From the NCBI RefSeq assembly GCF_014204915.1, contig NZ_JACHMH010000001.1, positions 2,852,001-2,916,000 of the forward strand: a DNA stretch of 64,000 nucleotides. Reading direction: 5' to 3'. This DNA is from Crossiella cryophila (GTDB taxonomy: Bacteria; Actinomycetota; Actinomycetes; Mycobacteriales; Pseudonocardiaceae). Position 1 is the stretch's first letter. Each line of letters begins with the position of its first letter. Below the pieces are notes generated by a model. It searched no databases. It had not been told where the DNA came from and was given only the letters and a program-made list of their open reading frames with translations. Position numbers and translations under genes: made by a program. Shown here in pieces: positions 9,788-43,484 of the stretch.

Positions 9788-9875
9788 GTCGGTAACTGAA
9801 CACGCTCAAGGGGGTCTGGAGGCATGCTGCGGGGAACTAAGTTCGGCGGCTGGTTTTGTGGAGTGTCTACAAGCA

Positions 9876-9903
9876 GTAATAGAAAACGGGGCCAGATATG
9901 TCA
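9876..9903 (-). promoter_or_regulatory. Candidate fabD promoter
   Basis: Within the 186-bp gap before fabD, the minus strand reads TGACAT (9898-9903) and, 16 bases on, TATTAC (9876-9881), a reasonable -35/-10 pair in an otherwise AT-enriched stretch. In Streptomyces, FasR binds just upstream of fabD, so its site is expected here; I cannot point to the exact sequence. Confidence 0.4.
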
Positions 9904-9973
9904 GTTTCATTGTGGCGACCGCTAGAAGTCCAGCTCGCGCGTTAGGCCGAATGGGTGAGCATTGAGACGGAGG

Positions 9974-21734: not shown

Positions 21735-21806
21735 GGGCGCATAGCTCAGCGGGAGAGCACTCGCCTTACAAGCGAGGGGTCGTTGGTTCGAACCCAACTG
21801 TGCCCA
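21735..21806 (+). tRNA. tRNA-Val(UAC)
   Basis: A full cloverleaf of 72 nt: acceptor GGGCGCA pairs with TGTGCCC (one G-U), D arm GCTC...GAGC, anticodon stem CTCGC/GCGAG with loop CTTACAA (anticodon UAC), and T arm GTTGG-TTCGAAC-CCAAC. No CCA is encoded. Confidence 0.97.
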
Positions 21807-21824
21807 CCGGATATTGATTTTTCA

Positions 21825-27989: not shown

Positions 27990-29402
27990 TCAGCTCGCGT
28001 AGGGAGCAGCCGCCTGCTTGGCGGCGTACATCAGCGCGGGCTTGATCTTCGGCCAGAAGGTGCTGGTCTGGCAGGAGTACGGCGGCAGGAAGCCACCGCA
28101 GGTGCCGCTGGACGGGCCGATCTCGAAGGTGAAACCGGGCACGCCGAGCTTGTCGTAGAGCCAGTCCTCGGTGCCGCCGGAGGCGGCGTAGCCGACGACC
28201 TGCGGCGCGGTGCCGTAGGTGTAGCCGGTGATGCCTGCCATGTCCTTGGCCATCCGGCGCAGGCTGGCGTCGTTGCCGGTGTAGGTGTTGGCCCGGTGCG
28301 CCCAGGGGAAGATGATCCCGTTGGTGTAGCTGTGGAAGGTGATCATCAGGCCCTTGGTGTCCTTGGCCGCCGGCGTGGTGTCACCGTCGCCGCGCTTGTC
28401 CGGGTAGAGCTTGGTGAACAGCGCCTGGAGCGAGTTCAGCTCGGTCTCGGAGTCCGCGCGCGGGCCGCGGTAGGTCTCGGCACACGGGTTGGTCGAGGTG
28501 CCTGCCTGGCCGTAGTGCGAGTTGGCGTTGCGGTTGAGGTCGATGCCGACCTGGCCGCCGGTGCCGCAGGTGCCGTTGGTGGTGTTGGCGTTCTTGCGCT
28601 GCAGGCGCGGGGAGCTGCCACCGGCCTGGACGATGTCAACGCCGTCCGGGTTGGTGATCGGGACGACCCACATCTCGGTGGTGTCCATCAGCCTGGTGAC
28701 CTCGGCGTCCGTGCCGTAGCCCTGGGTCAGGTGGTCGATCCACCGCCAGGCCATGTCACCGGTGGTGATCTCGCGGGCGTGGATCTGGGCCATCAGGAAG
28801 AAGCGCGGTTTGGCGGCGCTGGTGTTCAGCGCGCAGTCCCCGGCCTGCTTCTTGGTCAGGCAGATGGCACGCAGGTCGTAGCCGTTGGGCCTGCCGGTGC
28901 TCTTGCGCCAGGACTGGCCGTAGGTCACCCCGGTGGAGAGCGCGGGGTAGTCGGCGAGCACCTTGTCCAGGTGCGAGTGCTGCGCCCGCACGGTGCGGTA
29001 GCCGCCGTAGTAGGTCTCGTTGATGTCGTTGACGCCCAGCGGCTCGCTGTTGTTGTGCGCCTTGGGCGGGGCCCACGGCGCGGGCGCCATCACCGATTCG
29101 ACCTTGGTGGTGAACCCGGCCTTGGTCAGCCGGTTGGCCTCCTCGGCGTTGCCGAGCACGAACAGGTCGTCGCCGTCGCGCTGCTCCAGCACGTCCGAAC
29201 CGACCTGGATGAGCCGCTCGGAGTCGTTGACCCCGCCGACCACGCGGTAGACGAACATCGCCTGGCGCTGCTCCGCCTGGGCACTGTCGGCCTTGGCCGC
29301 CGGTTCCGGCGCGGGCGCGCCGGTCTGCTGGAACAACAACAGGGCACTGGTCGCCAACGCGGCGACCACGCCCGCGATGGGGATCCGCCGTGATACGGAC
29401 AT
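27990..29402 (-). CDS. Secreted M14 zinc carboxypeptidase
   Basis: 470 residues with a signal peptide (PIAGVVAALATSALLLF). A propeptide-like region spans to about residue 120; the catalytic domain has the HxxE zinc motif in IHAREITTGD, NPDGVD, the DLNRN substrate motif, the third ligand in MITFHSY and the catalytic Glu in FTFEIGPSSG. Cysteines CGTGG and CGGF suggest disulfides. It releases C-terminal amino acids from extracellular peptides. ATG at 29402 follows GAGAGGA. It lies downstream of jetC on the same strand across a 171-bp gap, the place where jetD would be expected. Confidence 0.92.
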   Translation of the reverse strand: MSVSRRIPIAGVVAALATSALLLFQQTGAPAPEPAAKADSAQAEQRQAMFVYRVVGGVNDSERLIQVGSDVLEQRDGDDLFVLGNAEEANRLTKAGFTTKVESVMAPAPWAPPKAHNNSEPLGVNDINETYYGGYRTVRAQHSHLDKVLADYPALSTGVTYGQSWRKSTGRPNGYDLRAICLTKKQAGDCALNTSAAKPRFFLMAQIHAREITTGDMAWRWIDHLTQGYGTDAEVTRLMDTTEMWVVPITNPDGVDIVQAGGSSPRLQRKNANTTNGTCGTGGQVGIDLNRNANSHYGQAGTSTNPCAETYRGPRADSETELNSLQALFTKLYPDKRGDGDTTPAAKDTKGLMITFHSYTNGIIFPWAHRANTYTGNDASLRRMAKDMAGITGYTYGTAPQVVGYAASGGTEDWLYDKLGVPGFTFEIGPSSGTCGGFLPPYSCQTSTFWPKIKPALMYAAKQAAAPYAS

Positions 29403-29573
29403 AGCCGTCCTCTCGCAGTTTCGCCGAGATGCACTGCGCGCAGCAGGGTGGATGCGGCAGGTGGGTCAGGACGCTAGGACGCGCGCACTTATCGCCATAA
29501 CCCTACGAATGGACGACGAGATTCAGTTTTAAGAGGTACCCGATCGTGAACGGGACATATCGCCACCGCCGGG

Positions 29574-32500
29574 CTAGACGTCCTCCCGGTCCAGCCCCGC
29601 TCCGTCCCAGGTGGTGTGCGTGCAGGCGACGCCGCCGCCGTTCTTGGGGCGGAGCACGTCGTAGATGTGCATGCGCGGGATCTTGCCGGAGACGCCCCAG
29701 CCACTGGGCCAGGTGATGATCCAGTCCATGTCCAGGTCGACCAGCAGTCCCAGCATGCGGGCGATGGTGGGGTCGTCGAGGCGCTCGAATGCCTCGTCGA
29801 GCAGGACCAGGCGGAGTGGGAACCAGCCTTCCTCGCCCGCGCTGACCGCGTCGTAGAAGCTGGCCGCGGCGGCGAAGAGGGTGACGTAGGAGACCAGGCG
29901 GGTTTCGCCGGAGGAGAGCTGGCGCAGGCGGCGGACCCTGGGCTTGCTGTCCGGGCCGGTGTCGCGGACCCGGACGGTGAAGGAGTACCAGGAGCGGTAG
30001 TCCAGGGCCCGGCCGAGGATCTCGGCGTAGCCGGCCGAGTGGGCGTCGCGTTCGGCCTCGATGCGTTCGGTGAAGGCGCGGCGCAGGGTGGCGTCCTGGT
30101 CCTGGCTGCGCTGGGCGAAGGGGGTGCGGACCAGTTCCAGGGCGTCCCTGGTGGCCTCGTCCAGCGCGGCCGAGGGGCGCCATTCCAGCTGGACGTGCAC
30201 GCCCTGGCTGGAGCGGGCCCGGTCCAGGACCTCGTTCATCCGGCGGCACAGGTCCTCGGCCACCGCGATCTGGCTGCGCAGGCGTTCGGCCAGGTCGCGC
30301 ATGAGGTAATCGGAGAAGATCTCCTGGTACCGCTCGCCGAGGTAACCGCGCTGGTCACCGAGGCGGGTGGCGACCAGGGCGGCGGCGTCGGCGACCGGGC
30401 GCGGGCCGTCCTCGGAGGTGACCGTGACGGTGAGGATGCCAGCGGTGGTCTCCGCGGTGATGTTGTGCGAACCGGCCAGCGCGGACTGCAGGGCCTGCAG
30501 GCGGCCGATCACGGTGCCCTCGCTGGCCGGGCGGCGGTCCTCGGCCGCGCCCAGGCGTTCGGCGGTGGCCAGCAGGTTCTCCGTGTCCGGGGCCTCGGCC
30601 TCCGGCAGCGCGGCGCTCCACACGCCGGGGGCGGCCAGGGTGTCCCGGAACGCGGCCTCGGCGGTGCTGACCTCCTGCTGACGGCCGGTGCGCTGCTGCT
30701 GCTTGGTCTCCAGCAGGGTGGCGATCTTGGTGGCTTCCTCGCGCACCTCGGCGACCCGCTCGCGCGCGCCGGGCAGGTCGGTCTTGGCCCGCTTGTGCTC
30801 GGCCTCCAGGGTGGCCAGTGATTCGGCGACCTGCTTGGCCTCGCCGCCGATGGCCGAGGTCAGCTCGGCCAGCGCGGCAGCTTGTTCGGCGTACTCGGCG
30901 CAGCGGGATTCGGCCTGGGCCTCGGCCTGTTCCCGGTCGCCGAGGGCGACCCGGTGGTTGTGCAGGGCGTCGGCGAGCTGGCGGATGGAGCCCGCGCAGC
31001 GTTCGGTGAGGGCTTCCTTGAGGCTGTCCACGGTGCCGCGGACCTGTTCGGCGGCCCGGTGCGCCTGTTCCAGCGCGGCGGTGTCGGCGGAGAGCCCGGC
31101 CTCGGTGGCGGCGTGGGTGAGTTCGGACTGCACGGCCCGCCAGTGGTCCTCGGCGTGCGAGTGCTCCTCGCGCAGGGTCAGCGCGCGGTGCTCGGACTCC
31201 TCGGCGCTCTCCTTGGCCCCGGCCAGCCGGGCGTGCGCGGCGATCAGCTCGTCGTCGTGCGGGAAGGCGGCCAGGTGCTTCTCCCAGCCGGTCGCCTGCC
31301 TGCGCAGGGCCTCCAGGTGCTGCTGGGCGGTGGCGAGTTCGCCGCGCCGCTGTTCCAGCTCGTCCTCCAGGCCGAGGATGCGGCGCTGCCGGGCGGCCTC
31401 GCGGGCGCCGGCGCCGATGTGCTCGGCGGCCTCCTTGGTCGCGGAGCCGGAGAGCACGCCTGCCCGCCAGCGGCCGTCGGTGGACAGGGCCAGCGCGGTG
31501 GCGGGCAGGTCCTCGCCGGGGGCGGCCAGTGCGATCGCCGAGAGCAGGCCGCTGACCAGGTCGGCGGGCACGGGGCTGTCCGGTTCGGCGGCGGCGGTGA
31601 GTGCCTCGGCGAGCGAGCGGCCGGTGACCGGGGGCAGCGCGGCGACCGCGGCGGCCAGGTCGGCCGGGGTGTGCAGCACGCCTGCGACCACCTCGGCGGC
31701 ACCGGCCTTGGCGAGGGTGCCGTCAGCGCGGACCCAGGCCGTGAGCAGACCGCTGGCCTGCATCGCGGCTTCCAGCCCCGCCCGTTCGGCCTCGGCAAGG
31801 CCCTCGGCGAAGTCGACCAGGCGGTAGCAGGACTCGCCCAGGTCGGCCGGGCGCTCGCCTGCTGGCAGTTCGGGGGCGCGTTCCTGGCCGCGGCGCAGGG
31901 CGGCGAGTTCGGTCTCCCGTTCCCGGATGCCCTCGCGCACGGTGGCGCAGGCCTGGTCGGCGGCGAGGACCCGCTGGGTGGCGGACTGCTGGTGCGGGGT
32001 GCCCCACTGGCGGAATTCCTCGCGTACCGCCCGTGCCCCGGCCCGGTCGATGACCAGGCTTTCCGGTTGCGGTGGCGCTGGCCGGTCGGCCTCGGCGCCG
32101 CCCTCGGGCGCGGCCTCGGCCCATTCGCGGACCTGGTTGGCCCAGTGTTCGGCGTGTTCGCGCAGCTCTTGCGCGGTCTGGTTGCGCCTGCCAGCGGAGT
32201 CGGTGGCGCCGATCTGGGCGTCCTTGGCGTTGCGGTGCAGTTCCTCGACCTTACGCAGCGCCCGGTCGGATTCCAGCGCGCGCTGGTGCAGCATCAGGGT
32301 GAGCGCGCCGCGCTGGCGCACCTCGGTGGCGGCCTCGGCGGCCTGCGCGGCGGCCGTGGACAGGCCGTCGAGGAGTTCCTCGGGGTCCAGTTCGGGCACG
32401 GCGCGGCGGGTGACCGCCAGTGCCGCGGCCGTGGCCTCGGGCTTGGCCCTGACCTGTTCGGTGGTCTCGGTGACCTCGGCCGGCGGCACGGTCGGCACCA

Positions 32501-33710
32501 CCGGGCACAGCCCGCGGTCCAGGCCCGCGGTGTGCAGCAGCTGGCCGGCCCGGTCGGCGAGGTCCTGGGCGGCGGCGGTGTCCCGGCCGAGCCGGTCCAG
32601 CACGGAGAGCACCGAGTCGACGCCGCGGTCCTCCTGGGCGCGCTGGCGGCTGGCCACCTCCAGCGCGGTCTCGGCGGAGCGGCGGGTGTTGGCGACCAGC
32701 TTCTCCCGGTCGGCCAGGTCGCGCATGCCCTGGTAGGCGGGCAGCGCCTTGAGCGCCTCGATCCGCATGGCCAGTTCGCTCTCGGCCTCCTCCAGCGCGG
32801 CGACGCCCGCGTCGGCGGCGGTGCGTTCCTGCTGCGCGGTGGCCTTGCGGCGTTCCAGCCTGCTCAGTTCGGCGAGCAGGCGTTGCAGGGTGTCGTGCGC
32901 GGCGCGCACCCCGTCGGCCGCGGTGCGCAGCGCGGCGAGGGCGTAGCCGGAGTAGGCGGTGAGGAAGGTGCGCAGCGCGCCGTCGGCGGTGGAGAGCCGG
33001 ACGATGTTCTCCCGGATGGACTCCAGGTCGTCGAAGGAGGTGGCCAGCCGTTCGATCAGGCCGGCTTCCAGCGGCGGCAGCGCGTCGCTGAGGATCTGCT
33101 CCAGCTGGCCCTCGAGGACCTTGAGGCCGACGTCGGGGTTGCGCAGGGTGCGTTGCAGGTGCAGCAGGTCGCCGTAGCGGTCGGCGGGCACGCCGTAGAC
33201 GCTTTCCGCGATCCGGGCCCGGAAGCCCGCCTCCTCCAGGACCGCGTCCGCGCCGAGCAGTTCGCGCAGCTGGCCGGGTCCGACCGGCACCCGGTCCGCG
33301 CCGACCAGGAGAACGTCCTTGCCGACCCGGCACGGGGTGATGAACCGCCAGGAGTCGCTGACCTGCTGCGAGGTCTTGGACGCCTTCACGCCGATGCCGC
33401 AGGTCAGGTACTCGTCCTGACCCGCGTCGTCGCTGCGGACCAGTTCGATCCAGGCGTAGCCGATCCGGTTCGGGCCGCCCTGGTAGTCATCGAGCATCAG
33501 GCGCCGGATGCTGACCGTGTCGAAGCCCTTGGAACCCATCTGCCGCAGTTCGCCGTCCAGGCACAGCGGCAGCAGCAGTTCGAGGGTCCGGGACTTGCCG
33601 GAGCCGTTGGTGCCCTGGAAGATCACCCGGCCGCCGGAGAAGTCGAACTCCTGCTCGGCGTACTGCCAGATGTTGACGATGCCGCCCCGGTTGAGCCGCC
33701 AGCGGTTCAC
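29574..33710 (-). CDS. jetC: JetC-like SMC ATPase of a type II Wadjet system (TIGR02680)
   Basis: 1378 residues, the size of the TIGR02680 family. The N-terminal ATPase half has the Walker A motif GTNGSGKS at residues 33-40; long coiled-coil arms follow with a globular hinge-like middle (about 600-780). The C-terminal half has the signature LSSGETRLVSYVTLF near 1265 and Walker B LRLVLLDEAFERLDD near 1300, so the ATPase looks intact. In Wadjet/MksB complexes this motor extrudes DNA loops and recognises small circular plasmids. The GTG at 33710 overlaps the jetB stop (GTGA). It is the last gene of the operon here. Confidence 0.92.
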   Translation of the reverse strand: MNRWRLNRGGIVNIWQYAEQEFDFSGGRVIFQGTNGSGKSRTLELLLPLCLDGELRQMGSKGFDTVSIRRLMLDDYQGGPNRIGYAWIELVRSDDAGQDEYLTCGIGVKASKTSQQVSDSWRFITPCRVGKDVLLVGADRVPVGPGQLRELLGADAVLEEAGFRARIAESVYGVPADRYGDLLHLQRTLRNPDVGLKVLEGQLEQILSDALPPLEAGLIERLATSFDDLESIRENIVRLSTADGALRTFLTAYSGYALAALRTAADGVRAAHDTLQRLLAELSRLERRKATAQQERTAADAGVAALEEAESELAMRIEALKALPAYQGMRDLADREKLVANTRRSAETALEVASRQRAQEDRGVDSVLSVLDRLGRDTAAAQDLADRAGQLLHTAGLDRGLCPVVPTVPPAEVTETTEQVRAKPEATAAALAVTRRAVPELDPEELLDGLSTAAAQAAEAATEVRQRGALTLMLHQRALESDRALRKVEELHRNAKDAQIGATDSAGRRNQTAQELREHAEHWANQVREWAEAAPEGGAEADRPAPPQPESLVIDRAGARAVREEFRQWGTPHQQSATQRVLAADQACATVREGIRERETELAALRRGQERAPELPAGERPADLGESCYRLVDFAEGLAEAERAGLEAAMQASGLLTAWVRADGTLAKAGAAEVVAGVLHTPADLAAAVAALPPVTGRSLAEALTAAAEPDSPVPADLVSGLLSAIALAAPGEDLPATALALSTDGRWRAGVLSGSATKEAAEHIGAGAREAARQRRILGLEDELEQRRGELATAQQHLEALRRQATGWEKHLAAFPHDDELIAAHARLAGAKESAEESEHRALTLREEHSHAEDHWRAVQSELTHAATEAGLSADTAALEQAHRAAEQVRGTVDSLKEALTERCAGSIRQLADALHNHRVALGDREQAEAQAESRCAEYAEQAAALAELTSAIGGEAKQVAESLATLEAEHKRAKTDLPGARERVAEVREEATKIATLLETKQQQRTGRQQEVSTAEAAFRDTLAAPGVWSAALPEAEAPDTENLLATAERLGAAEDRRPASEGTVIGRLQALQSALAGSHNITAETTAGILTVTVTSEDGPRPVADAAALVATRLGDQRGYLGERYQEIFSDYLMRDLAERLRSQIAVAEDLCRRMNEVLDRARSSQGVHVQLEWRPSAALDEATRDALELVRTPFAQRSQDQDATLRRAFTERIEAERDAHSAGYAEILGRALDYRSWYSFTVRVRDTGPDSKPRVRRLRQLSSGETRLVSYVTLFAAAASFYDAVSAGEEGWFPLRLVLLDEAFERLDDPTIARMLGLLVDLDMDWIITWPSGWGVSGKIPRMHIYDVLRPKNGGGVACTHTTWDGAGLDREDV

Positions 33711-34942
33711 GCGGGTTCCTCCTCATCGAAAAGCGACCAGCTCGCCGGTGGCGGCGGCGCCTCTTCCTTTTCCTGGGCGGCGGGACCGCCAGGGGTGTCA
33801 TCGGGTTCGGGCACCCACCGGTGCGCGACGGGGGAGAGCAGCCAGTCGGGCTCCTCCCAGCGCGCCAGACCGGTGTTGACCAGCAGTTCGAGCACTTCGT
33901 CGACCAGGCCGTCGATGTCCTCGGTGGCCTGTTTGGACCAGGCGGCCGGGTAGGACTCGACCAGCTCGGCGCAGATCTGTTGCAGCCGCTGCCTGCTCAC
34001 CGGGTGGCGGCCGTCGGCGCGGGCCTCGTGTTCGGCGAGCAGTTCGGGCAGGGCCAGCAGCGCGACCCTGGCGACCGTGCCGGAGGAGGGGAAGGCCAGG
34101 TCGGTGAGGTATTCCTCGGGATCGGTGACCGCGATCCCCTCCAGCCGCGCCTCGGTGACCAGGCCGAAGCAGCGGTCCAGCAGCAGGGATTCGCGGCGCT
34201 GGTTCTTCTTCAGCCAGGATGCCTGCTCGGGCGGCAGGTCGGCGTGCAGGACCACCGGGTTCTCCACCAGTTTGCGGCGCACCGCGTGTTCGGTGGTCTG
34301 TTCCATCCCGGCGGGTCCGGCCTCGGCGGCCTTGCCGATCAGCTCCTCGGGGGTGTCCACCTCGCCGACCGGTCCGGCCAGCAGGTGGCCGAGCACGTCG
34401 GTGTCCACGGTGATCAGCGCCTCGGTGATGGCATCGCCGGACCAGGTGGACACCGAGCCCTCGGTCTCGGTGATCACGCCGAGGGCGAGCAGGTGGCGCA
34501 GCGCGGCGGTGAGCGCGCGCCGGTCGCCCAGGTCGTCCACGACCTCGATGCCGGCTTCGACCGCGGCCGCGCGCACCTCGCTGACCAGCCGGGACAGCAG
34601 CACCTGGCGGCCGACGCCGGTGAGTGCGGCCATGGTCAGCGCGACGTAGGCGTAGCCGCGCGGGGACAGCCCGGCCTCACCGCGGGTGGGGTCGGCGCCG
34701 GGGCCCGCCTTGTAGAGCCGGGCGTAGCGGCGCTGCACGACCAGCCGGTAGCCCAGCAGCGAGGCGAACAGGTCGTGCAGGGCGTTGCGGTGCCGGAAGA
34801 CCAGCGGCAGCAGGTCGCCGTCCGGGCCGTCGGCGCGCAGCAGCGGGCGGCGCAGCAGGGTGCGCGCGCAGCGGGTGACGTTGGCCGCGTCGATGTCGGA
34901 GAGTTCGTCCAGGATGCCGATCCCGCTGGGTTTGCGGCTCAT
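33707..34942 (-). CDS. jetB: JetB-like kite subunit (TIGR02678)
   Basis: 411 residues. The N-terminal region (ILDELSDIDAANVTRCARTLLRRPLL) and the segment FRHRNALHDLFASLLGYRLVVQRRYARLYK match the TIGR02678 family, the MksE/JetB-type winged-helix partner of the SMC ATPase. It ends in a Pro/Glu-rich tail. ATGA overlap with jetA and GTGA overlap with jetC show tight translational coupling, expected for fixed stoichiometry of a complex. Confidence 0.9.
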   Translation of the reverse strand: MSRKPSGIGILDELSDIDAANVTRCARTLLRRPLLRADGPDGDLLPLVFRHRNALHDLFASLLGYRLVVQRRYARLYKAGPGADPTRGEAGLSPRGYAYVALTMAALTGVGRQVLLSRLVSEVRAAAVEAGIEVVDDLGDRRALTAALRHLLALGVITETEGSVSTWSGDAITEALITVDTDVLGHLLAGPVGEVDTPEELIGKAAEAGPAGMEQTTEHAVRRKLVENPVVLHADLPPEQASWLKKNQRRESLLLDRCFGLVTEARLEGIAVTDPEEYLTDLAFPSSGTVARVALLALPELLAEHEARADGRHPVSRQRLQQICAELVESYPAAWSKQATEDIDGLVDEVLELLVNTGLARWEEPDWLLSPVAHRWVPEPDDTPGGPAAQEKEEAPPPPASWSLFDEEEPA

Positions 34943-36483
34943 GCCTGGCCCCCCAGCTGGACGCTGGCGTGGTGCAGGGTGAGAACTCCACCCGATGTGG
35001 CGATCTGTGTCACCTGGTCGGGGACGTGGTTGATGGTCAGTCGCAGTCCGTGCACCGGGTCGGCGGCCGAGCCGGTGTCGGTGTCGCGTTCCCGCTGGGC
35101 CATGGCCATGGTGAGCAGTTCGCAGAGCACCTCGAGGGCCTCGGCGGAGAGGTTGCTCTGGGCCAGCGCGGGGGCGGCGGCGCTGAGTTCGGCGACCGCG
35201 GCGGCCCGCTGCCGGTCCGCCTCCCGTGCCTGGGCGAGCAGGGTTTCCTGCAGCATCGGGTCGTCCTGGATGCGGGAGGCGCGGCCGCGGGCGCCGCGGT
35301 CGCCTCGGCTGCGCACGCTGACGTTGACCTCGACCACCGGGCCGTCCCGCCACGGGGTGTGCTCGTCGTCGCCGTCGTGTTCGGGCGCGGGCAGCAGGTG
35401 CCGGGCGGAGTAGAGGCCGAAGGCGGCGGCGTACAGCTCGTGCGAGCGGTGCGGTCCGGCCGAGTCGAGCCAGCCTGCCAGTTGCAGCAGTTCGGCGCGG
35501 CGGCTGGGCAGCAGGCCACCGCCGGCGGTGGCCCGTTTGACGCTGGCCAGCAGGGAGCCGATGGCGCGGGCGGTGGCCTCGCGCAGCGCGGTGACCTGGC
35601 TGGGGCGGCCTGGCCGGTCGGCGAACCAGTCGGTCAGCTCCCGCCAGTCGGTCTCCGAGCGGCCGCGGCCGCGTTCGACGGCGATGCCAAGGCGTTCGGT
35701 GGGGCCGAGGATGCGCAGCAGTTCCCCGCGGGCCGGGGCGAGTCCGGCCAGGGACTCGGCGATGGCCGGGGTGTGCCGCAACACGTCCTCGACGACCATC
35801 TGGATGTATTCGACCAGCAGGTTGCGGAAGCCGGAGATCTCTTCCGGGTCGAGGTGGAACCGGGTGACCACCTGACCGAGGTACGCGTAGAAGTCACGCA
35901 CGGTGACCGCGAGTTCGGCGTGCTGCAGGAACAGCGTGGTGACCTGTTCGGCCAGCTCCTCCTTGGCCCGTTTGGCACTGGCCGCGCTGGGCGCCTGCGC
36001 TTCGGCGACCATGGCCTGGGAGAGCGTGCCGCCCAGTTTGGACAGGCCGCGTTCGATCGCGGGCAGCAGTTCCCGGGAGACCTCGCGCGCGCCCTCCGGC
36101 ACCCGGAGCAGCTCGTCGACGTCCCGCTGCACCCGCACCGCGAGCTTGTTGATCTGGTACCGGAACGCGCCGCGGACGAACTCGGCGATGCTGGAGGCGA
36201 TCGTCTCCCGCCGCCCCTGCACCAGGTTTCCCCAGTCCTTGAGCCGTTTCAGCCGGTCGGCCACGGTGTCGGGATCGGATTCGCCGATGTCCAGGCGGCC
36301 CTCGCGCTCCAGTGGCTTGAGCGCGGCGGCGACCTCGTTGGGGGAGAGGTCGGGCAGCAGCGTCGCGGTGAACAACCGCATGATCGCCACGTAGGTCCTG
36401 GTGTGCTCAGCGTTGAGGTAGGAGTAGAGCCGGAGCCGGCCCTCACCGCCTGTGGAGTCGCCATGAGTCACGGACGGCCACAT
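34939..36483 (-). CDS. jetA: JetA-like kleisin subunit (TIGR02677)
   Basis: 514 residues. After a short leader the protein has RLYSYLNAEHTRTYVAIMRLF, the opening of TIGR02677, followed by a helical middle and a C-terminal winged-helix-like part; this is the kleisin-type MksF/JetA of Wadjet. ATG at 36483 or the in-frame GTG at 36471 may be used; neither has a clear ribosome site. It is first in jetA-jetB-jetC and divergent from cobD across 90 bases, which must hold both promoters. Confidence 0.88.
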   Translation of the reverse strand: MWPSVTHGDSTGGEGRLRLYSYLNAEHTRTYVAIMRLFTATLLPDLSPNEVAAALKPLEREGRLDIGESDPDTVADRLKRLKDWGNLVQGRRETIASSIAEFVRGAFRYQINKLAVRVQRDVDELLRVPEGAREVSRELLPAIERGLSKLGGTLSQAMVAEAQAPSAASAKRAKEELAEQVTTLFLQHAELAVTVRDFYAYLGQVVTRFHLDPEEISGFRNLLVEYIQMVVEDVLRHTPAIAESLAGLAPARGELLRILGPTERLGIAVERGRGRSETDWRELTDWFADRPGRPSQVTALREATARAIGSLLASVKRATAGGGLLPSRRAELLQLAGWLDSAGPHRSHELYAAAFGLYSARHLLPAPEHDGDDEHTPWRDGPVVEVNVSVRSRGDRGARGRASRIQDDPMLQETLLAQAREADRQRAAAVAELSAAAPALAQSNLSAEALEVLCELLTMAMAQRERDTDTGSAADPVHGLRLTINHVPDQVTQIATSGGVLTLHHASVQLGGQA

Positions 36484-36573: not shown

Positions 36574-37539
36574 ATGAGCGGCGCTGCTCGGGCGATCGGT
36601 CTGCTGCTGGGTGCGGCCGCCGACGTGGTGGTCGGCGACCCCCGGCGGGGCCATCCGGTGGCCGCCTTCGGCACGGTCGCGGCCGGCCTGGAGAAGGTGC
36701 TCTACCGGGACCACCGGGCGCCGGGGGTGGTGCACGTGGTGCTGCTCACCGGCGGCGCGGTGCTGCTCGGGGTGGCCGCGGAGAAGCTCGGCAAGCACTC
36801 CCCGGTGCTGCAGGCGGCGACCACCGCGGTGGCCACCTGGGCGGTGCTCGGCGGCTGTTCGCTGGCCGGTGAGGGCACGCTGATGGCCCGCGCGCTCGAC
36901 GCCGGGCGGCTGGACGAGGCCAGGGACCGGCTGCCCAACCTGTGCGGCCGCGACCCGGCGGCGCTGGACGCGCTCGGACTGGCCAGGGCCACCGTGGAGT
37001 CGGTGGCGGAGAACACCTCCGACGCCCAGGTCGCGCCGTTGTTCTGGGGTGCGGTGGCCGGGGTGCCCGGCCTGCTGGCCTACCGGGCGATCAACACCCT
37101 GGACGCGATGGTCGGGCACCGCTCGCCGCGCTACCGCAACTTCGGCTGGGCCGCGGCCCGGCTGGACGACGTGGTCAACCTGGCGCCCTCCCGGCTGGCC
37201 GCGATGCTGACCGCGCTGGGCGCGCCGGTGGTCGGTGGCTCGGCCAAGCACGCCTGGCGGACCTGGCGGCTGGACGCCTCGGCGCACCCCAGCCCGAACG
37301 CCGGGCAGGTGGAGGCGGCCTTCGCGGGCGCGCTGGAGATCCGTCTCGGCGGGCGCACGGTGTACCGGCACGGCGCGGAGGAGCGGCCGGTGCTCGGTGA
37401 CGGGCGCAACCCCGACTCCGGGCACGTCACCAGGGCGGTGGAGCTGTCCAGGGTGGTCGGCGGGCTGTCCGCGCTGGCCTCAGCGACGGCCGCCGTAGCG
37501 ATCGGCGGTCTGCGGCGCAGGCGTCGGCACCGGGTCTGA
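36574..37539 (+). CDS. cobD: Adenosylcobinamide-phosphate synthase (CobD/CbiB)
   Basis: 321 residues, membrane protein. GDPRRGHPVAAFG at the N-terminus, ARATVESVAENTSDAQVAPLFW and AYRAINTLDAMVGHR are family signatures; ARLDDVVNLAPSRL and HPSPNAGQVEAAFAGAL follow. It joins aminopropanol phosphate to adenosylcobyric acid late in cobalamin synthesis. The 3' end overlaps the convergent SURF1 gene by 60 bases. In M. tuberculosis cobD (Rv2236c) also adjoins SURF1 (Rv2235). No B12 riboswitch fits in the 90-bp upstream gap. Confidence 0.94.
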   Translation: MSGAARAIGLLLGAAADVVVGDPRRGHPVAAFGTVAAGLEKVLYRDHRAPGVVHVVLLTGGAVLLGVAAEKLGKHSPVLQAATTAVATWAVLGGCSLAGEGTLMARALDAGRLDEARDRLPNLCGRDPAALDALGLARATVESVAENTSDAQVAPLFWGAVAGVPGLLAYRAINTLDAMVGHRSPRYRNFGWAAARLDDVVNLAPSRLAAMLTALGAPVVGGSAKHAWRTWRLDASAHPSPNAGQVEAAFAGALEIRLGGRTVYRHGAEERPVLGDGRNPDSGHVTRAVELSRVVGGLSALASATAAVAIGGLRRRRRHRV

Positions 37540-38310
37540 GTCCGCGTCGTCGTCCTCGTCCGGCTCGTCCTCGTCGTCCTCTTCCGACTCGGGGTGCGCC
37601 TCCCGCCAGAGCAGGAAGCCGAGCCCGACCGGGGCCATCAGGCCGAAGGCGATCCACTGCAGGGCGTAGGAGAAGAACGGCCCCGCCTCCAGCTTGGGCA
37701 GTGGCAGCAGGCCGAGCACGCCCGGCTGGCCCTCGTTGAGCTGCACGTAGCCGGGCCGCAGGTCCAGGCCGACGGCCTTGCCCAGCACGGTGGGGTCGAT
37801 GGTGTAGATCTGCCGCTTGCCGTCCTGGTCCAGCACGTCCTGCCGGCCGGGGTCGATCTCGCTGCCGCGGACCCGGCCGATCACGGTGACCTGACCGCTC
37901 GGCGCGGCGTCGTAGGCCACCGGTTTGGTGCCCTGCTGGACCTTGATGTAGCCGCGGTTGACGATCACGGTCTGCCCGGAGTCGGTGCGCAGCGGGGTGA
38001 GCACCTCGAAGGCGGCCTTGCCCTCGGCCTTGCGCAGCCGCACCAGCGTCTCCGCCTCGGGCAGGTACCGCCCGGTGAGCTTGACCACCAGCCACTGCTT
38101 CGCCGCCGGGTCGGTACCCGGTGGCAGCGCGGTCTCGTAGTCGACCGCCTCGGTCTCCAGCGAGCCGGTGATCGCCGAGTTCTGCGTCTCCCTGCGCTCG
38201 TCCTGCCGGAACTGCCAGGGGGCCAGGATCCACAGGCAGGCCGCCGAGAACAGCAGCACGAACCCGATCAGGGCCAGCCAGCCCGGTCGCAGCAGGAACT
38301 TCCAACGCAC
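37480..38310 (-). CDS. SURF1 family cytochrome oxidase biogenesis protein
   Basis: 276 residues with two membrane helices, at residues 10-30 (LALIGFVLLFSAACLWIL) and about 215-235 (ALQWIAFGLMAPVGLGFLLW), bracketing an exported beta-rich domain with the VNRGYIKV motif. SURF1 helps insert heme into cytochrome aa3 oxidase. The last 40 residues are an unusually acidic Asp/Glu tail. It is fourth in the leftward unit PIG-L, LMW phosphatase, fructosamine kinase, SURF1, 22 bases behind the kinase gene. Confidence 0.92.
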   Translation of the reverse strand: MRWKFLLRPGWLALIGFVLLFSAACLWILAPWQFRQDERRETQNSAITGSLETEAVDYETALPPGTDPAAKQWLVVKLTGRYLPEAETLVRLRKAEGKAAFEVLTPLRTDSGQTVIVNRGYIKVQQGTKPVAYDAAPSGQVTVIGRVRGSEIDPGRQDVLDQDGKRQIYTIDPTVLGKAVGLDLRPGYVQLNEGQPGVLGLLPLPKLEAGPFFSYALQWIAFGLMAPVGLGFLLWREAHPESEEDDEDEPDEDDDADSDPVPTPAPQTADRYGGRR

Positions 38311-38332: not shown

Positions 38333-39181
38333 TCACCCGCTCGGTGGCCGCCCCCGGACCGCCTGCGCCGCGGCCACCGTCCGCTGCCCGTAGGAGCCGC
38401 CGAAGAGCACCACGTGCACCAGCAGCGGGAACAGCTGGTGCAGCGGAACCCGGTCCCGCCAGCCCTGCGCCAGCGGGGCCACCTCCTGGTAGGCGCCCAG
38501 GATCCGGTCCAGGTGCGGGCAGCCGAACAGGGCCAGCATGGCCAGGTCGCTCTCCCGGTGCCCGCCGTGCGCGGCCGGGTCGATCAGGTGCACCCCGTCG
38601 GCGCCCCACAGCACGTTGCCCGACCACAGGTCGCCGTGCAGCCGGGCGGGCGGCTCGGGCGGTCCCGCGTACTCGGCGATCCGCTCGCACACCGCGCGCA
38701 CCGGCCGCGGATCGGGCAGGTCGGCGGTGCGCAGGTAGGGCTCCAGGCGCTGGGTGGCGAAGAACTCCGGCCAGTCGTCGTGCGGCTCGTTGCGCATCGG
38801 GGCCGCGCCGATCCAGGCATCCGCCGGACCGCCGGGTGGTGGGCAGCCGAAGGCGGTCGCGCCGCTGGCGTGCAGCGCGGCCAGTTCCCGGCCGAACCGC
38901 TCGGCCGCGGCCGGCGTGGGTTCGCCGGGCGGCACCCAGTCCAGCACCAGCCAGGTCTGGTCGTGGCCCAGCACCGCCGGGATCGGCACCGCGTCCGCCG
39001 CGGCCAGCCAGCTCAGCCCGGCCGCCTCGGCCACGCTGCTGCCGGCCGCCGCGGACTTGGCCACCACCTGCCGCCCGTCGGCCAGCCGGGCCCGGAACAC
39101 CTCGGCCGCACTGCCCCCGGCCGCAGTCACCTGCACCGCGTCGACGCCGGTGAGCCGGGTGATCGCGGCGGCCGCGGTCAC
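38333..39181 (-). CDS. Fructosamine kinase family protein (ketosamine 3-kinase)
   Basis: 282 residues. The kinase fold shows GSAAEVFRA (nucleotide loop), VVAKS (Lys), the catalytic loop RLHGDLWSGN, and LIDPAAHGGHRESDLAML. The FN3K family phosphorylates sugars attached to protein lysines or free amines as the first step of deglycation; bacterial members favour ribulosamines and erythrulosamines. The GTG overlaps the stop of the LMW phosphatase gene (GTGA), a pairing known in other bacteria, where the phosphatase acts on the kinase product. Confidence 0.92.
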   Translation of the reverse strand: MTAAAAITRLTGVDAVQVTAAGGSAAEVFRARLADGRQVVAKSAAAGSSVAEAAGLSWLAAADAVPIPAVLGHDQTWLVLDWVPPGEPTPAAAERFGRELAALHASGATAFGCPPPGGPADAWIGAAPMRNEPHDDWPEFFATQRLEPYLRTADLPDPRPVRAVCERIAEYAGPPEPPARLHGDLWSGNVLWGADGVHLIDPAAHGGHRESDLAMLALFGCPHLDRILGAYQEVAPLAQGWRDRVPLHQLFPLLVHVVLFGGSYGQRTVAAAQAVRGRPPSG

Positions 39182-39648
39182 AGCTTCTTCCGCACCCAGT
39201 CCAGCAGGCCGGGCACGGCCGCCTCCACCATGCCCAGCACCTCGGCGAAATCGGCCCGGCCGCCGTAGTACGGGTCGGGCACGTCCAGATCGTCCCCGGC
39301 GGCCGGGTCGAAGGAGCGCAGCAGCCGGACCTCGCCGGTGACCAGGCGGCGCAGTTCGCGCTGGTGCCCGGCGTCCAGGGCCAGGAACAGGTCCGCGTCC
39401 GCGTGCGCCGATCCGACCTGGGCCGCGGTGTGCTCGGCCGGGTAGCCGTGTTCGAGCAGCACCGCGCGGGCCCGGTGGTCGGCCTGCTCGCCGATGTGCC
39501 AGGGCCCGGTGCCCGCGCTGGTCACCTTGACCCGCTCGGCCAGCCCGGCCCGGCGCAGGTGCTCGCGGAAGACGATCGCGGCGATGGGGGACCGGCAGAT
39601 GTTGCCGGTGCAGACGAAGCTCAGGTGCACCGGCTCAGTCTCCGTCAT
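39178..39648 (-). CDS. Low-molecular-weight protein-tyrosine-phosphatase family protein (PtpA-like)
   Basis: 156 residues. The P-loop CxxxxxR(S) is Cys13-TGNIC-Arg19-Ser20 and the general-acid Asp is in DVPDPYYGG near residue 124. In M. tuberculosis the gene at this place, Rv2234, is the phosphatase PtpA. Here it lies between a PIG-L deacetylase and a fructosamine kinase with overlapping starts and stops on both sides, which favours ketosamine-phosphate or aldose-phosphate dephosphorylation over signalling; both remain possible. Confidence 0.93.
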   Translation of the reverse strand: MTETEPVHLSFVCTGNICRSPIAAIVFREHLRRAGLAERVKVTSAGTGPWHIGEQADHRARAVLLEHGYPAEHTAAQVGSAHADADLFLALDAGHQRELRRLVTGEVRLLRSFDPAAGDDLDVPDPYYGGRADFAEVLGMVEAAVPGLLDWVRKKL

Positions 39649-40478
39649 CGCGGTACATCGAGGTACTCGTGCGGATCGGCGGCGGCGGGATCGATCATCA
39701 GGCGCACGCTGTGGTAGCCCAGCGCGTAGCGGCCGTTTGCCGGATCCCAGTGGCGGTACTCGGCCAGCGCCTGGCGCTTGCGGGCGTGCTGGGCCGGGGT
39801 GAGCGGCACCACGTGGTCGGCGGTGCGCTCGGCTGGCGGGTAGGTGTAGCCGTAGACCCAGTAGTAGCGGAAGTCGCTGATCCGCTCGCGCAGGCTCTCC
39901 GCGGCGTCCCGGCAGGCGGCGTGGGTCTTGTTGGGGTCGGCGGGATCGCCGCCGTGGATGACATCCCGCCAGCCGCTGACCAGCTTGTGCGAGGCGCCGG
40001 GGTGGCGGGACTCGAAGTCCAGGATGGTCTCCCGGACGTACTGGACGAACCCGGGGTAGTCGGTCCAGGCGCTGTCCGGATGCTGCATGTTGATCACCCG
40101 GTCCACGCCAAGCCGGTGCGCGGCCGCGGTGAACTCGGCGGTGCGCGCGGCCACGATGTCGTCCAGGCTCAGCTCGATCCGGTGGCCGGGATCACCGGAG
40201 GGGCAGTCCGCGCCCAGGTTGCAGTTGCCGTTGATGATGTCGATCAGCCCGCCGTTCTCGCCGCGGGAGAGCAGCACCAGGTACACCGGCCGCCCGGCCT
40301 CCTTGTGCGCCCGGATCGCGCCCGCCATCGCGATCGACTCGTCGTCCTGGTGCGGGGCGTAGAAGATCGCCGGCCAGTCGGCGGCGGCGGCCGGGGCCTG
40401 ACCGAGGGCCAGACCGCCGAGGGCGGCCGCGGAGACGCCGAGCAGGCGGCGGCGGGAGAGTCCGGCGTGATCGTCCAT
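39645..40478 (-). CDS. Tat-exported PIG-L family deacetylase
   Basis: 277 residues from ATG at 40478. Residues 8-14 SRRRLLG plus the hydrophobic stretch to AAAAD form a twin-arginine signal peptide. The zinc/catalytic motif APHQDDE (residues 41-47) is the PIG-L/LmbE signature; the third zinc His is likely in the THAACRDAA region. The family de-N-acetylates GlcNAc derivatives; cytosolic MshB makes mycothiol, but an exported member more likely works on envelope or environmental glycans. It is the first gene of the leftward unit and overlaps the phosphatase gene by ATGA. Confidence 0.9.
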   Translation of the reverse strand: MDDHAGLSRRRLLGVSAAALGGLALGQAPAAAADWPAIFYAPHQDDESIAMAGAIRAHKEAGRPVYLVLLSRGENGGLIDIINGNCNLGADCPSGDPGHRIELSLDDIVAARTAEFTAAAHRLGVDRVINMQHPDSAWTDYPGFVQYVRETILDFESRHPGASHKLVSGWRDVIHGGDPADPNKTHAACRDAAESLRERISDFRYYWVYGYTYPPAERTADHVVPLTPAQHARKRQALAEYRHWDPANGRYALGYHSVRLMIDPAAADPHEYLDVPR

Positions 40479-40546
40479 CAGCCGAGTGTCGCGGCCGGGC
40501 CCCGACTGGTCATCGGCCACTCGTCGGGCGGCTTAGACTCGCCGCG

Positions 40547-41611
40547 ATGACTGGCGAGGACTTCGAGCGCGCGCGACTGCGCCACCACGGCGATGCCGAG
40601 GCCGCGCCGGGACTCGCCGATTTCGCGGTCAACGTGCGCCTGCCCCGCCCGCCGGACTGGCTGCGCGCCCGGCTCGCCGAGGCACTGGACGGCCTTGGCC
40701 GCTACCCCGGGGCCGAGGACGAGCTGGCCGCCCGCGTGGCCGCCGCCGACCGGCACGGCCGTTCGCCCGAGCAGGTGCTGATCCTCAACGGGGCGGCCGA
40801 GGGGTTCGCGTTGCTGCCCCGGCTGGCGCCGGGACTGGCCGCGGTGGTGCACCCCTCCTTCACCGAGCCCGATGTGGCCCTGCTGGACGCCGGGGTGCCG
40901 CTGACCAGGGTGCGGCTGCGTCCCGAGGACGGCTACGCGCTGCGGCCCGAGCTGGTGCCCGAGGACGCCGACCTGGTGGTGGTGGGCAACCCGACCAACC
41001 CGACCTCGGTGCTGCACCCGGCCGAGACCCTGCGTGCGCTGGCCAGGCCCGGCCGGGTGCTGGTGGTGGACGAGGCATTCGCCGACGCGGTGCCCGGTGA
41101 GCCGGAATCCGTTGCGGGAGCGGACATTCCAGGGCTGCTGGTGCTGCGCAGCCTGACCAAGACCTGGGGCCTGGCCGGACTGCGCGCCGGATACGCCCTC
41201 GGCGCGCCGGAGCTGTTGGCCCGGCTGGCCGCGCACCGTCCACAATGGCCGGTGGGCAGCCTGGTGCTGACCGCGGTCGAGGCCTGCTGCGCCCCGGAAG
41301 CCGTGCGGGAGGCCGACCTCGCCGCCCGCGAGGGCGTGGCGCACCGGAGCGCCATGGCCGCGGCACTGGCCGAACTGCCCGGGGTCGAGGTGTGTGGAGG
41401 GGCCGCCGGGCCGTTCCTGCTGCTGCGGGTCGCCGACGGCGAGCGGGTGCGGCTGGAGCTGCGTGAACAGGGGGTCGCGGTGCGTCGCGCGGACACCTTC
41501 CCCGGCCTGGACGCCACCCACCTGCGGGTCGCGGTGCGCCCGCCGGAGCAGGCCGCGGTGCTGCTCAAGGCGTTGCAGACGGTGTTGCGGGAAGAGGGGG
41601 AGCAGGGATGA
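40547..41611 (+). CDS. cobC: CobC-like class I/II aminotransferase (threonine-phosphate decarboxylase type)
   Basis: 354 residues, PLP fold type I: GNPTNPTSVL binds the cofactor, DEAFAD is the Asp loop, and the Schiff-base lysine is Lys205 in SLTKTWGLAGLRAGY. It is the homologue of Rv2231c, annotated cobC; the enzyme class produces aminopropanol phosphate for cobalamin or acts as a histidinol-phosphate aminotransferase. The nearby cobD makes the cobalamin role more likely. It starts the rightward unit cobC, Nif3, zinc ribbon, RNase H/phosphatase, all with overlapping stop/start codons. Confidence 0.88.
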   Translation: MTGEDFERARLRHHGDAEAAPGLADFAVNVRLPRPPDWLRARLAEALDGLGRYPGAEDELAARVAAADRHGRSPEQVLILNGAAEGFALLPRLAPGLAAVVHPSFTEPDVALLDAGVPLTRVRLRPEDGYALRPELVPEDADLVVVGNPTNPTSVLHPAETLRALARPGRVLVVDEAFADAVPGEPESVAGADIPGLLVLRSLTKTWGLAGLRAGYALGAPELLARLAAHRPQWPVGSLVLTAVEACCAPEAVREADLAAREGVAHRSAMAAALAELPGVEVCGGAAGPFLLLRVADGERVRLELREQGVAVRRADTFPGLDATHLRVAVRPPEQAAVLLKALQTVLREEGEQG

Positions 41612-42756
41612 GCCCGACACTGGCCGAGGTGGTCGCCGCGATCGAGGCGGCCTACCCGCCCGAACTGGCCGAGTCCTGGGACGCGGTCGGCCTGGTGTGC
41701 GGCGATCCGGCCGAACCCGTCGACCGGGTGCTGGTCTGCGTGGACCCGGTCGAGTCCACAGTGGACGAAGCCATCGAACTCGGCGCGCAGCTCGTGCTCG
41801 CCCACCACCCGCTGCTGCTGCGCGGTGTGCACGGCGTGCCCGCCGATGACGCCAAGGGCCGCCTGGTGCACAAGCTCATCCGCAACGGCGCCGGGCTGCT
41901 GTGCGCGCACACCAACGCCGACTCCGCCGACCCCGGCGTGTCCGACGCACTGGCCGAGGCACTGGGCCTGCGGGTCACCGGCCCACTGGACGCCAAACCC
42001 GCCGACCCGCTGGACGCGCTCAGCGTGATCGTGCCGGCCGGGCACACCGACAAGCTCCTGGACGCGCTCTTCGCCGCCGGGGCGGCCGCGATCGGCGACT
42101 ACCGCGAGGCCGCCTTCCTGCACGAGGGCACCGCCCAGTTCCGGCCGATCGCCGCCGCCGACCCGGCCGCGGGCCGCCACGGTGAACTGCACCGCGGCCC
42201 GGAGACCAGGATCGAGACCGTGCTGCCCCGGCACCGCCGCCGTGCGGTGCTGGCCGCCCTGCACGCCGCCCACCCGTACGAGACCCCCGCCTACGACCTG
42301 CACGAACTGGCCGAGGAGCCCTCCAGCCGCGGTATCGGCCGGATCGGCGAACTGGCCGAGGCCGAACCCTTCGGCGCGTTCGTGCAGCGGGTCGCGCTCG
42401 CCCTGCCCGAGACCGCCTGGGGCGTGCGCGCCGCTGGCGAGCCGGAACGCCCGGTGCGCACCGTCGCGGTGTGCGGCGGCGCGGGCGACTCGCTGCTGCG
42501 CGCGGCGACCAGGGCCGGCGTGGACGCCTATGTCACCGCCGACCTGCGACACCACCCGGCCGGGGAACACCTCGCCGGGGCAGACACCCCCATGCTCGTC
42601 GACGTCGCGCACTGGGCCAGCGAATGGCCGTGGTGCGCGCAGGCGGCCGACGTCATCCGCCGGGCGTTCCCCGGTACGGTCGACGTCCACGTCTCCACCC
42701 GACGCACCGATCCGTGGACGCTGGCCGCGTCCGCCACAGGGAGGACCCCCGCGTGA
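41608..42756 (+). CDS. Nif3-like dinuclear metal centre protein
   Basis: 382 residues, the long form with an inserted middle domain. Metal-ligand regions are visible: SWDAVGLVCGD at the N-terminus, AHHPLLLRGVH, HTNADSADPG and the C-terminal GDSLLRAATRAGVDAYVTADLRHH with DVAHWASEW. These build a toroidal hexamer with two metals per subunit. Biochemical function remains unclear across the family (GTP cyclohydrolase I type 2 has been claimed). Homologue of Rv2230c. ATGA overlap with cobC. Confidence 0.93.
   Translation: MSPTLAEVVAAIEAAYPPELAESWDAVGLVCGDPAEPVDRVLVCVDPVESTVDEAIELGAQLVLAHHPLLLRGVHGVPADDAKGRLVHKLIRNGAGLLCAHTNADSADPGVSDALAEALGLRVTGPLDAKPADPLDALSVIVPAGHTDKLLDALFAAGAAAIGDYREAAFLHEGTAQFRPIAAADPAAGRHGELHRGPETRIETVLPRHRRRAVLAALHAAHPYETPAYDLHELAEEPSSRGIGRIGELAEAEPFGAFVQRVALALPETAWGVRAAGEPERPVRTVAVCGGAGDSLLRAATRAGVDAYVTADLRHHPAGEHLAGADTPMLVDVAHWASEWPWCAQAADVIRRAFPGTVDVHVSTRRTDPWTLAASATGRTPA
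41754..41766. repeat. Copy 4 of the motif
   Basis: Exact copy in the Nif3-like gene, Ser-Thr-Val-Asp with the rare codon ACA. Confidence 0.7.
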
Positions 42757-43484
42757 AAGCCGATCCCGCCGTGCAGAAGCGGCTGCTCGACCTCGCCGAG
42801 GTCGACGCCGAGCTGAACCGCGCCACCCACCGGCGGCGCACCCTGCCCGAGCTGGCCGAGATCGTCACCGCCGAAACCGAACTGCGCACCCGCAAGGACG
42901 CGGTGGTGGCGGTGGAGACCACCCTGGCCGACCTGGACCGGGACGCCAAGCGGCTGGACTCCGAGATCGACCAGGTCCGCGCCCGCGAGGAGCGCGACCG
43001 CACCCTGCTCAACTCCGCCGACGCCAAGCGCTCGGTGGACCTCCAGCACGAGCTGGAGACCCTCGCCCGCCGCCGCGGCATCCTGGAGGACGAGTCCCTG
43101 GAGCTGATGGAGCGGCGCGAGGCCGTCGAGATGGACGTGCAGCACGCCCGCGCCCAGGACGGCCTGGCCCAGGAGAAGCTGGCCGACGCCCAGCGCCGCC
43201 GGGACGAGGCATTCGCCGACCTGGAGACCATCGAGGCCCGCTCCGGCGACCGGCGCAAGACCGTGCTGGCCGGCCTGCCCACCGACCTGGTCACCCTCTA
43301 CGAGCGGATCCGGTCCAAGGGCGGCACCGGGGCCGCGCTGCTCAAGGCCCGCCGCTGCGGCGCCTGCCGGCTGGAGCTGGACCGGATCGCGATGAGCAAG
43401 CTCAAGGAGGCCGCCAGGGACGAGGTGGCCCGCTGCGAGGAGTGCGGCGCGATCCTGGTGCGCACCGCGGAGTCCGGCCTGTGA
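42753..43484 (+). CDS. C4-type zinc ribbon coiled-coil protein
   Basis: 243 residues from GTG at 42753 (GGGAGG upstream, GTGA overlap). Residues 1-180 form an antiparallel coiled coil rich in Arg/Glu. The C-terminus has a zinc ribbon with CGAC and, about 30 residues on, CEEC. Homologue of Rv2229c. The family is thought to bind nucleic acid or act in cell envelope assembly; nothing here decides it. Confidence 0.92.
   Translation: MKADPAVQKRLLDLAEVDAELNRATHRRRTLPELAEIVTAETELRTRKDAVVAVETTLADLDRDAKRLDSEIDQVRAREERDRTLLNSADAKRSVDLQHELETLARRRGILEDESLELMERREAVEMDVQHARAQDGLAQEKLADAQRRRDEAFADLETIEARSGDRRKTVLAGLPTDLVTLYERIRSKGGTGAALLKARRCGACRLELDRIAMSKLKEAARDEVARCEECGAILVRTAESGL

Follow-up and report, generated by a model that had tools for sequence, protein, structure and literature searches.

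The single-contig, 10.06-Mb genome of Crossiella cryophila (Pseudonocardiaceae) contains, within a stretch of 64,000 nucleotides (the window, whose positions are used throughout), a type II Wadjet operon, jetA-jetB-jetC, that is intact and has overlapping genes (29574-36483, minus strand). JetD, the nuclease that is a defining subunit of type II Wadjet, is missing from it. We put the probability at about 0.6 that this locus is a type II Wadjet that has lost its nuclease and is being kept as an SMC complex without one. Since relatives with the operon at the same site keep jetD behind jetC, the gene appears to have been lost from an inherited operon, and comparison of loci across the family suggests that type II Wadjet has probably been converted into a nuclease-free SMC complex repeatedly.

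The jetABC operon

The best PADLOC matches of all three proteins are type II models, so that JetA2, JetB2 and JetC2 are found together in one operon (Table 1). An earlier note, made from the DNA letters alone, had assigned the proteins to TIGR02677, TIGR02678 and TIGR02680; the latter two assignments exceed the curated cut-offs, whereas the match of jetA to TIGR02677 (146.8 bits) falls below its cut-off of 165.85. The mutual stop/start overlaps noticed there can be read directly in the DNA, as ATGA between jetA and jetB and as GTGA between jetB and jetC. The likely start of jetB is an ATG at 34942, inside the longest open reading frame, which yields a protein of 411 aa. We take the jetA product to be a kleisin-type subunit and the jetB product to be a KITE-type subunit. 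The jetC product is an SMC-type ATPase with the Walker A, signature and Walker B motifs all present (GTNGSGKS, LSSGE and VLLDEA), just as the earlier note had it, and its closest named relative is the JetC of Crossiella sp. S99.2 (98% identical).

No JetD detected in the genome

At the position behind jetC where JetD-bearing relatives carry jetD, the window has 171 nt, which could not accommodate a JetD, in agreement with the earlier claim that the operon lacks the gene; no terminator-like site was found in this interval, which runs from the jetC stop (29574) to an M14 carboxypeptidase gene. The earlier note had considered that JetD might be encoded elsewhere, might have been lost, or that the remaining motor might serve another role, and had proposed a genome-wide profile search. 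That search was run and returned no match to TIGR02679 (11/11 first-look candidates scored), to PF09664 (12/12 candidates scored), to PF09983 (no candidates) or, at E<=1, to a lineage profile, A1 (102/102 candidates scored). A1 was derived from an alignment of 15 JetDs from the lineage, with one g8 and two g45 sequences among its rows (g numbers are our handles for genera). With four profiles finding no JetD in either operon or genome, a JetD encoded elsewhere in the genome was discarded. The TIGR02679 search works in this family, since it detected JetD in 86/150 family genomes (87/150 by A1); it gave no match in any of the 14 named control genomes.

A JetD present but too diverged for these profiles is the least credible of the explanations we weighed. 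The g8 and g45 forms do score poorly with TIGR02679, but A1 recovers the g8 forms at 336-365 bits in 5/6 loci (the sixth is in two pieces) and yields nothing in G000, G055 and G086, and the next gene begins just 171 nt from jetC. Within the genus, represented by five genomes, profile searches found no type II JetD in G000, G055 and G086; of the other two, G016 encodes a full type II JetD, and G108 shows a partial match that stays under the cut-off. In both genomes this lies apart from the resident jetABC. G055 and G108 each have a PF09983 (JetD_C) match.

The operon occupies a fixed site in two clades

To place the locus, the PADLOC JetC model PDLC00553 was used against 150 family genomes, with at most three candidates per genome scored, so that copies can be missed; 124/150 genomes had a match at E<=0.001, some of them very weak. 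The 150 listed loci were used, of which 104 were fetched (96 with scores of 1000-1282 and 8 chosen controls), and 24 named loci were added. The JetC tree has 85 tips, with two Micromonospora, a Dactylosporangium and a Catenulispora sequence as outgroup; loci under the score limit, 16 named loci duplicating fetched ones and the partial L060 were left out. The 81 resident loci on this tree divide into 22 of clade I, from 7 genera, and 59 of clade II, from 19 genera if three named Actinokineospora rows are counted with g45. The JetC tree supports clade II at 0.79, and a FastTree built from concatenated JetABC supports clade I at 1.0 and clade II at 0.89.

Across both clades, the surroundings are conserved: cobD lies divergently upstream in 22/22 clade I and 54/59 clade II loci, and SURF1 upstream in 22/22 and 51/59, which implies that the operon was inherited together with its neighbourhood. 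In Actinophytocola (g31), cobD/SURF1-type neighbours were not found beside the operon. Of the options above, loss of JetD is supported by the relatives that carry jetD behind jetC at this same cobD/SURF1 site. The comparison of related loci that the earlier note suggested does reveal jetD behind jetC in some relatives; the loss itself is a lineage-wide pattern and not peculiar to the strain.

States of JetD across the family

In clade I, a full-length JetD is encoded behind jetC in 22/22 loci, within about 1.5 kb. Nineteen of these proteins possess both the Toprim Glu and the D-x-D motif, and three, from genus g38, have Gln for Glu. The picture in the 59 clade II loci is one of absence (37 loci), of an N-terminal part only, cut before the Toprim domain (7), of JetDs without the Toprim Glu (14, full-length or somewhat shortened), and of a single intact JetD. 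For the 37 loci without JetD, the shortest stretch inspected behind jetC was 2.3 kb, the others exceeding 7.5 kb. Among the Glu-less proteins, six from g8 also have Ser or Thr for the second Asp (D-x-S/T instead of D-x-D), and in the seven from g45/Actinokineospora Pro replaces the first of three C-terminal glutamates. Glutamates in the C-terminal region have been proposed as JetD nucleophiles, in the passages of PMC10123090 consulted, and the C-terminal glutamates here may be equivalent to that region. These states suggest a path of JetD decay among relatives in which catalytic residues would go first, then the Toprim domain and then the gene.

The choice of residues was checked independently of our labels in 20 more distant JetDs, in which the Glu column is kept in 19/20 and D-x-D in 20/20. 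Because the mutations E236A and D279A in Corynebacterium glutamicum MksG drastically impaired nuclease activity (PMC10123090, from the same passages), loss of the Glu in type II JetD would most likely abolish cutting. When PDB sequences were searched with the JetD profile, no JetD/MksG relative was found, the one match being an ADP-ribosyltransferase with an E-value of 0.71.

Some loci depart from the usual arrangement. In four g8 loci (L098, L099, L101 and L102), the Glu-less jetD is separated from jetC by 1.4-2.5 kb of other DNA. A stand-alone g8-type JetD-like gene without the Toprim Glu is present at L193 (G142:C6, 200380-201381), with no jetABC match in the 16 kb inspected around it. A further group of type II JetABC, with an LSGGE signature, occurs in g16 (L164-L168) and g8 (L123, L133 and L134), and no JetD match was found in the stretches inspected for these sets.

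The topology of the JetD tree broadly agrees with that of the JetC tree, and the exceptions, the truncated L105 among them, fall on branches that are weak or long. The one JetD of clade II that is intact, that of Actinokineospora iranica (L049), is 57-64% identical to the Glu-less JetDs of other Actinokineospora and at most 51% to those of clade I. Because it groups with the Glu-less Actinokineospora JetDs of its relatives (support 0.994), it looks inherited, a survivor. If no regain is assumed, the JetC tree requires 7 inactivations of JetD and the concatenated FastTree 10, falling to a minimum of 2 if the intact JetD of L049 is not ancestral; the number is uncertain because several of the deciding nodes are weak (support 0.16 and 0.45; 0.0, 0.42 and 0.21).

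The motor is under purifying selection

Whatever the state of JetD, the Walker A, signature and Walker B motifs are kept in 82/82 aligned JetC proteins (21 clade I, 57 clade II and 4 outgroup; the alignment omits L105 and L157, with split JetC, and L067, with a partial JetA match). We calculated dN/dS for 18 close pairs of loci, comprising 10 JetD-less, 3 intact-JetD and 5 damaged-JetD pairs. JetD-less pairs gave 0.03-0.18 for jetA, 0.03-0.35 for jetB and 0.06-0.26 for jetC, the highest values coming from one pair with a dS of only 0.02-0.04, and pairs with intact JetD gave 0.06-0.09, 0.06-0.16 and 0.09-0.15, respectively. Values in the damaged-JetD pairs reach up to 0.33 in jetC. The jetABC genes are therefore under purifying selection. 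For jetD itself, dN/dS is 0.09-0.35 in damaged and 0.22-0.40 in intact copies, so that the damaged copies that remain are still under constraint; perhaps a Glu-less JetD is still retained as a structural or regulatory subunit.

The resident JetC was found in 48/51 listed genomes of 11 clade II genera, with 2 of the 48 split in two frames; this hand count leaves out g23 (G061 having only an unplaced weaker match) and one-genome genera, and six genomes without a match are unlisted. We also looked at clade-specific columns and the JetB N-terminus as marks of a JetD interface. Private conserved columns number 12 in JetA, 9 in JetB and 70 in JetC for clade I and 4, 2 and 8 for clade II, a contrast that proves nothing because clade I is smaller and less diverse.

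What a nuclease-free JetABC might do

A JetABC of this kind would still bind DNA and extrude loops with ATP, would be unable to cut small circles without JetD, and could work as a second, condensin-like chromosomal complex beside Smc-ScpAB, as MksBEF does in Pseudomonas. Canonical SMC and ScpA are both encoded in the Crossiella genome (954 and 228 bits, respectively), which would make JetABC an additional complex. With an SMC operon that includes presumed kleisin and KITE genes, no MksG/JetD found and a canonical SMC also present, the genome has the gene set of an MksBEF-like, nuclease-free complex. That the remaining motor serves another role, as the earlier note had allowed, fits the conserved ATPase motifs and the purifying selection; the role itself we infer, a chromosomal one being most likely and plasmid handling without cutting ranking second.

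Several points weigh against a maintained, nuclease-free complex. The activity of a JetD-less type II JetABC is a prediction from sequence, and the scored Glu and D-x-D were recognized as putative Toprim metal ligands by motif and family knowledge; in L128, one of the more distant JetDs, the Glu column is occupied by Gln and a neighbouring one by Glu. According to the passages of PMC7083940 consulted, C. glutamicum MksBEFG, which includes its nuclease, had no chromosome role, so that such a role should not be assumed for JetABC. Two of the 59 clade II JetC proteins are split in two frames (L105 and L157). Some sampled genera, with at most three candidates per genome scored, showed no JetC, which implies that the complex is dispensable over long times. 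Finally, at the SURF1-cobD site of G035 (g35, kin of clade I), an intact jetD is present and jetABC is gone. This jetD (L194, G035:C10:24000-42000, at about 9334-10590) directly follows cobD and has the Glu, D-x-D and three glutamates; across the 18 kb of this site there was no jetA or jetB profile match, and for jetC only a 15.7-bit coiled-coil match. This reverse loss indicates that the jetD and jetABC modules are separable at the site and that it can also be the motor that disappears. It tempers the idea of a motor that is always kept and leaves the clade II pattern unchanged.

The split jetC genes, the genera without JetC and the G035 site, together with the several visible stages of JetD decay, might also be expected if the operon were a decaying remnant in which jetABC merely lacked time to decay. 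We consider this very improbable, as dN/dS is low and similar to that of JetD-bearing relatives, the ATPase motifs are kept, 57/59 clade II JetC proteins are in one frame, and the loss spans 19 genera; decay of jetABC was rejected on these grounds. At the window locus itself, the decay of jetA-jetC that the earlier note had named as a refuting sign was not seen.

It is unlikely, in our judgement, that JetABC acts against plasmids without cutting them, by compacting, sequestering or silencing small circles that would then replicate or segregate poorly. The JetC motor motifs are intact, and JetABC is regarded as a sensor of DNA-circle shape and size in the passages of PMC10586767 consulted, but a fixed, vertically inherited site would be less typical of a defence gene.

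Less probable again is a replacement of JetD by another nuclease, encoded nearby or elsewhere and working with JetABC in trans. Partner exchange may occur, given the RecN/Rad50-like ATPase gene behind jetC in five JetD-less loci (family f18), and G142 has its stand-alone JetD-like gene on another contig. However, the G142 protein lacks the Toprim Glu, and the two of the five f18 ATPases that were scanned with Pfam and PADLOC showed no Pfam nuclease domain. Besides jetD, the widest same-strand cluster behind clade II jetC is an M14 peptidase, in 12/59 loci (5 genera) and in 0/22 of clade I, and wider downstream clusters (25, 23 and 14 of 59 loci) lie on the opposite strand. A widely conserved replacement gene behind jetC was thus sought among the 59 clade II loci, and none was found. 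A maintained, nuclease-free SMC complex remains our preferred reading.

Neighbourhood of the operon

The surroundings of the operon are summarized in Table 1. The next same-strand gene behind jetC codes for a carboxypeptidase, as the earlier note had recognized. Further downstream of the operon are a tRNA-Val gene (21735-21808) and an EspG-family gene (PF14011, 25874-26656).

Table 1. The jetABC genes and neighbouring features in the window.
Feature	Position	Strand	Evidence and remarks
jetA	34939..36483	-	514 aa from start 36483; PADLOC JetA2 PDLC00541, 639 bits
jetB	33707..34942	-	TIGR02678, 149.1 bits (cut-off 124.65); PADLOC JetB2, 403 bits
jetC	29574..33710	-	1378 aa; TIGR02680, 697.9 bits (cut-off 462.85); PADLOC JetC2, 1185 bits
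jetD site of JetD-bearing relatives, behind jetC	29403..29573	-	here 171 nt without JetD
M14 carboxypeptidase, next same-strand gene behind jetC	27990..29402	-	PF00246, 170 bits; not a nuclease
cobD/cbiB, divergent neighbour of jetA	36574..37539	+	PF03186, 308 bits; 90 nt between jetA and cobD starts
SURF1-family gene, second site anchor	37480..38310	-	PF02104, 112 bits
Fructosamine kinase, low-molecular-weight phosphatase and PIG-L genes (upstream block)	38333..40520	-	first two widely syntenic
Aminotransferase (cobC-like, named by eye), NIF3 and CT398/zinc-ribbon genes	40547..43484	+	further synteny

Known systems and wider distribution

The locus resembles type II Wadjet (JetABCD) in its jetA, jetB and jetC families, gene order and overlaps, and differs from it in the missing JetD. 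Like MksBEF of Pseudomonas aeruginosa, which is reportedly related to type I Wadjet, it would represent a nuclease-free Muk-like SMC complex beside Smc-ScpAB; unlike MksBEF, it consists of type II families, is found in actinomycetes, and belongs to a series in which several stages of JetD decay are still visible. Pseudomonas MksBEF was derived from Wadjet by loss of JetD, according to the parts of a review consulted, and MukBEF/MksBEF are suspected descendants of Wadjet (PMC10586767). C. glutamicum MksBEFG, Mycobacterium smegmatis EptC and the JetABC of the window are all actinobacterial Muk-like SMC complexes. According to PMC10123090 and PMC7083940, the MksBEFG of C. glutamicum includes a nuclease, MksG, and its action is on plasmids, whereas the window locus lacks JetD; the presence of EptC is cited there as restricting plasmids. 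The titles and abstract openings searched, with subscription papers mostly outside their scope, describe no JetD-less type II Wadjet.

In a class-wide sample of 148 genomes, with at most three JetC candidates per genome scored, TIGR02680 had a match in 40 genomes and TIGR02679 in 27. By hand count, 35 TIGR02680 loci exceed the cut-off (a fragmented copy in G280 being left out), 19 with JetD nearby and 16, the window included, without. The local JetD profile, which found the control L189 at 238 bits, gave no match in the 15 other JetD-less loci, of which 14 are informative, as L178 has less than 400 nt behind jetC before its contig ends. In the genome of L187 (G236), a 31-bit TIGR02679 piece is located some 10 kb past jetC. 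Type II operons without JetD are thus frequent among the genomes sampled, which makes the finding more general and the window less singular.

In five of the class loci (L174, L175, L182, L184 and L185; f18), a JetD-less jetABC is followed by a gene for an ABC-type ATPase of about 700 aa (RecN/Rad50-like) and then by genes resembling those for ribosomal protein L33 and MaoC; the ATPase is possibly another jetABC partner. JetD-less jetABC also lies beside a superoxide dismutase-like gene (L176) and an mshC-like gene (L177), contexts that suggest other fixed chromosomal sites (names here are by eye).

We tentatively propose, at somewhat less than even odds, that in actinomycetes type II Wadjet has become a housekeeping SMC complex on several occasions, with the steps from active nuclease to full loss standing side by side, with the same motor at the same site. 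This bears on the wider question of how SMC complexes pass from a role in chromosome maintenance to one in DNA defence, or back. With 16/35 class loci lacking a TIGR02679 match nearby, an anti-plasmid label given on the strength of jetABC alone may often be mistaken. Close relatives that differ in nuclease state at one site make the effect of JetD loss on the motor directly testable and, if our proposal is true, these loci would directly record, in nature, how a defence machine becomes a condensin.

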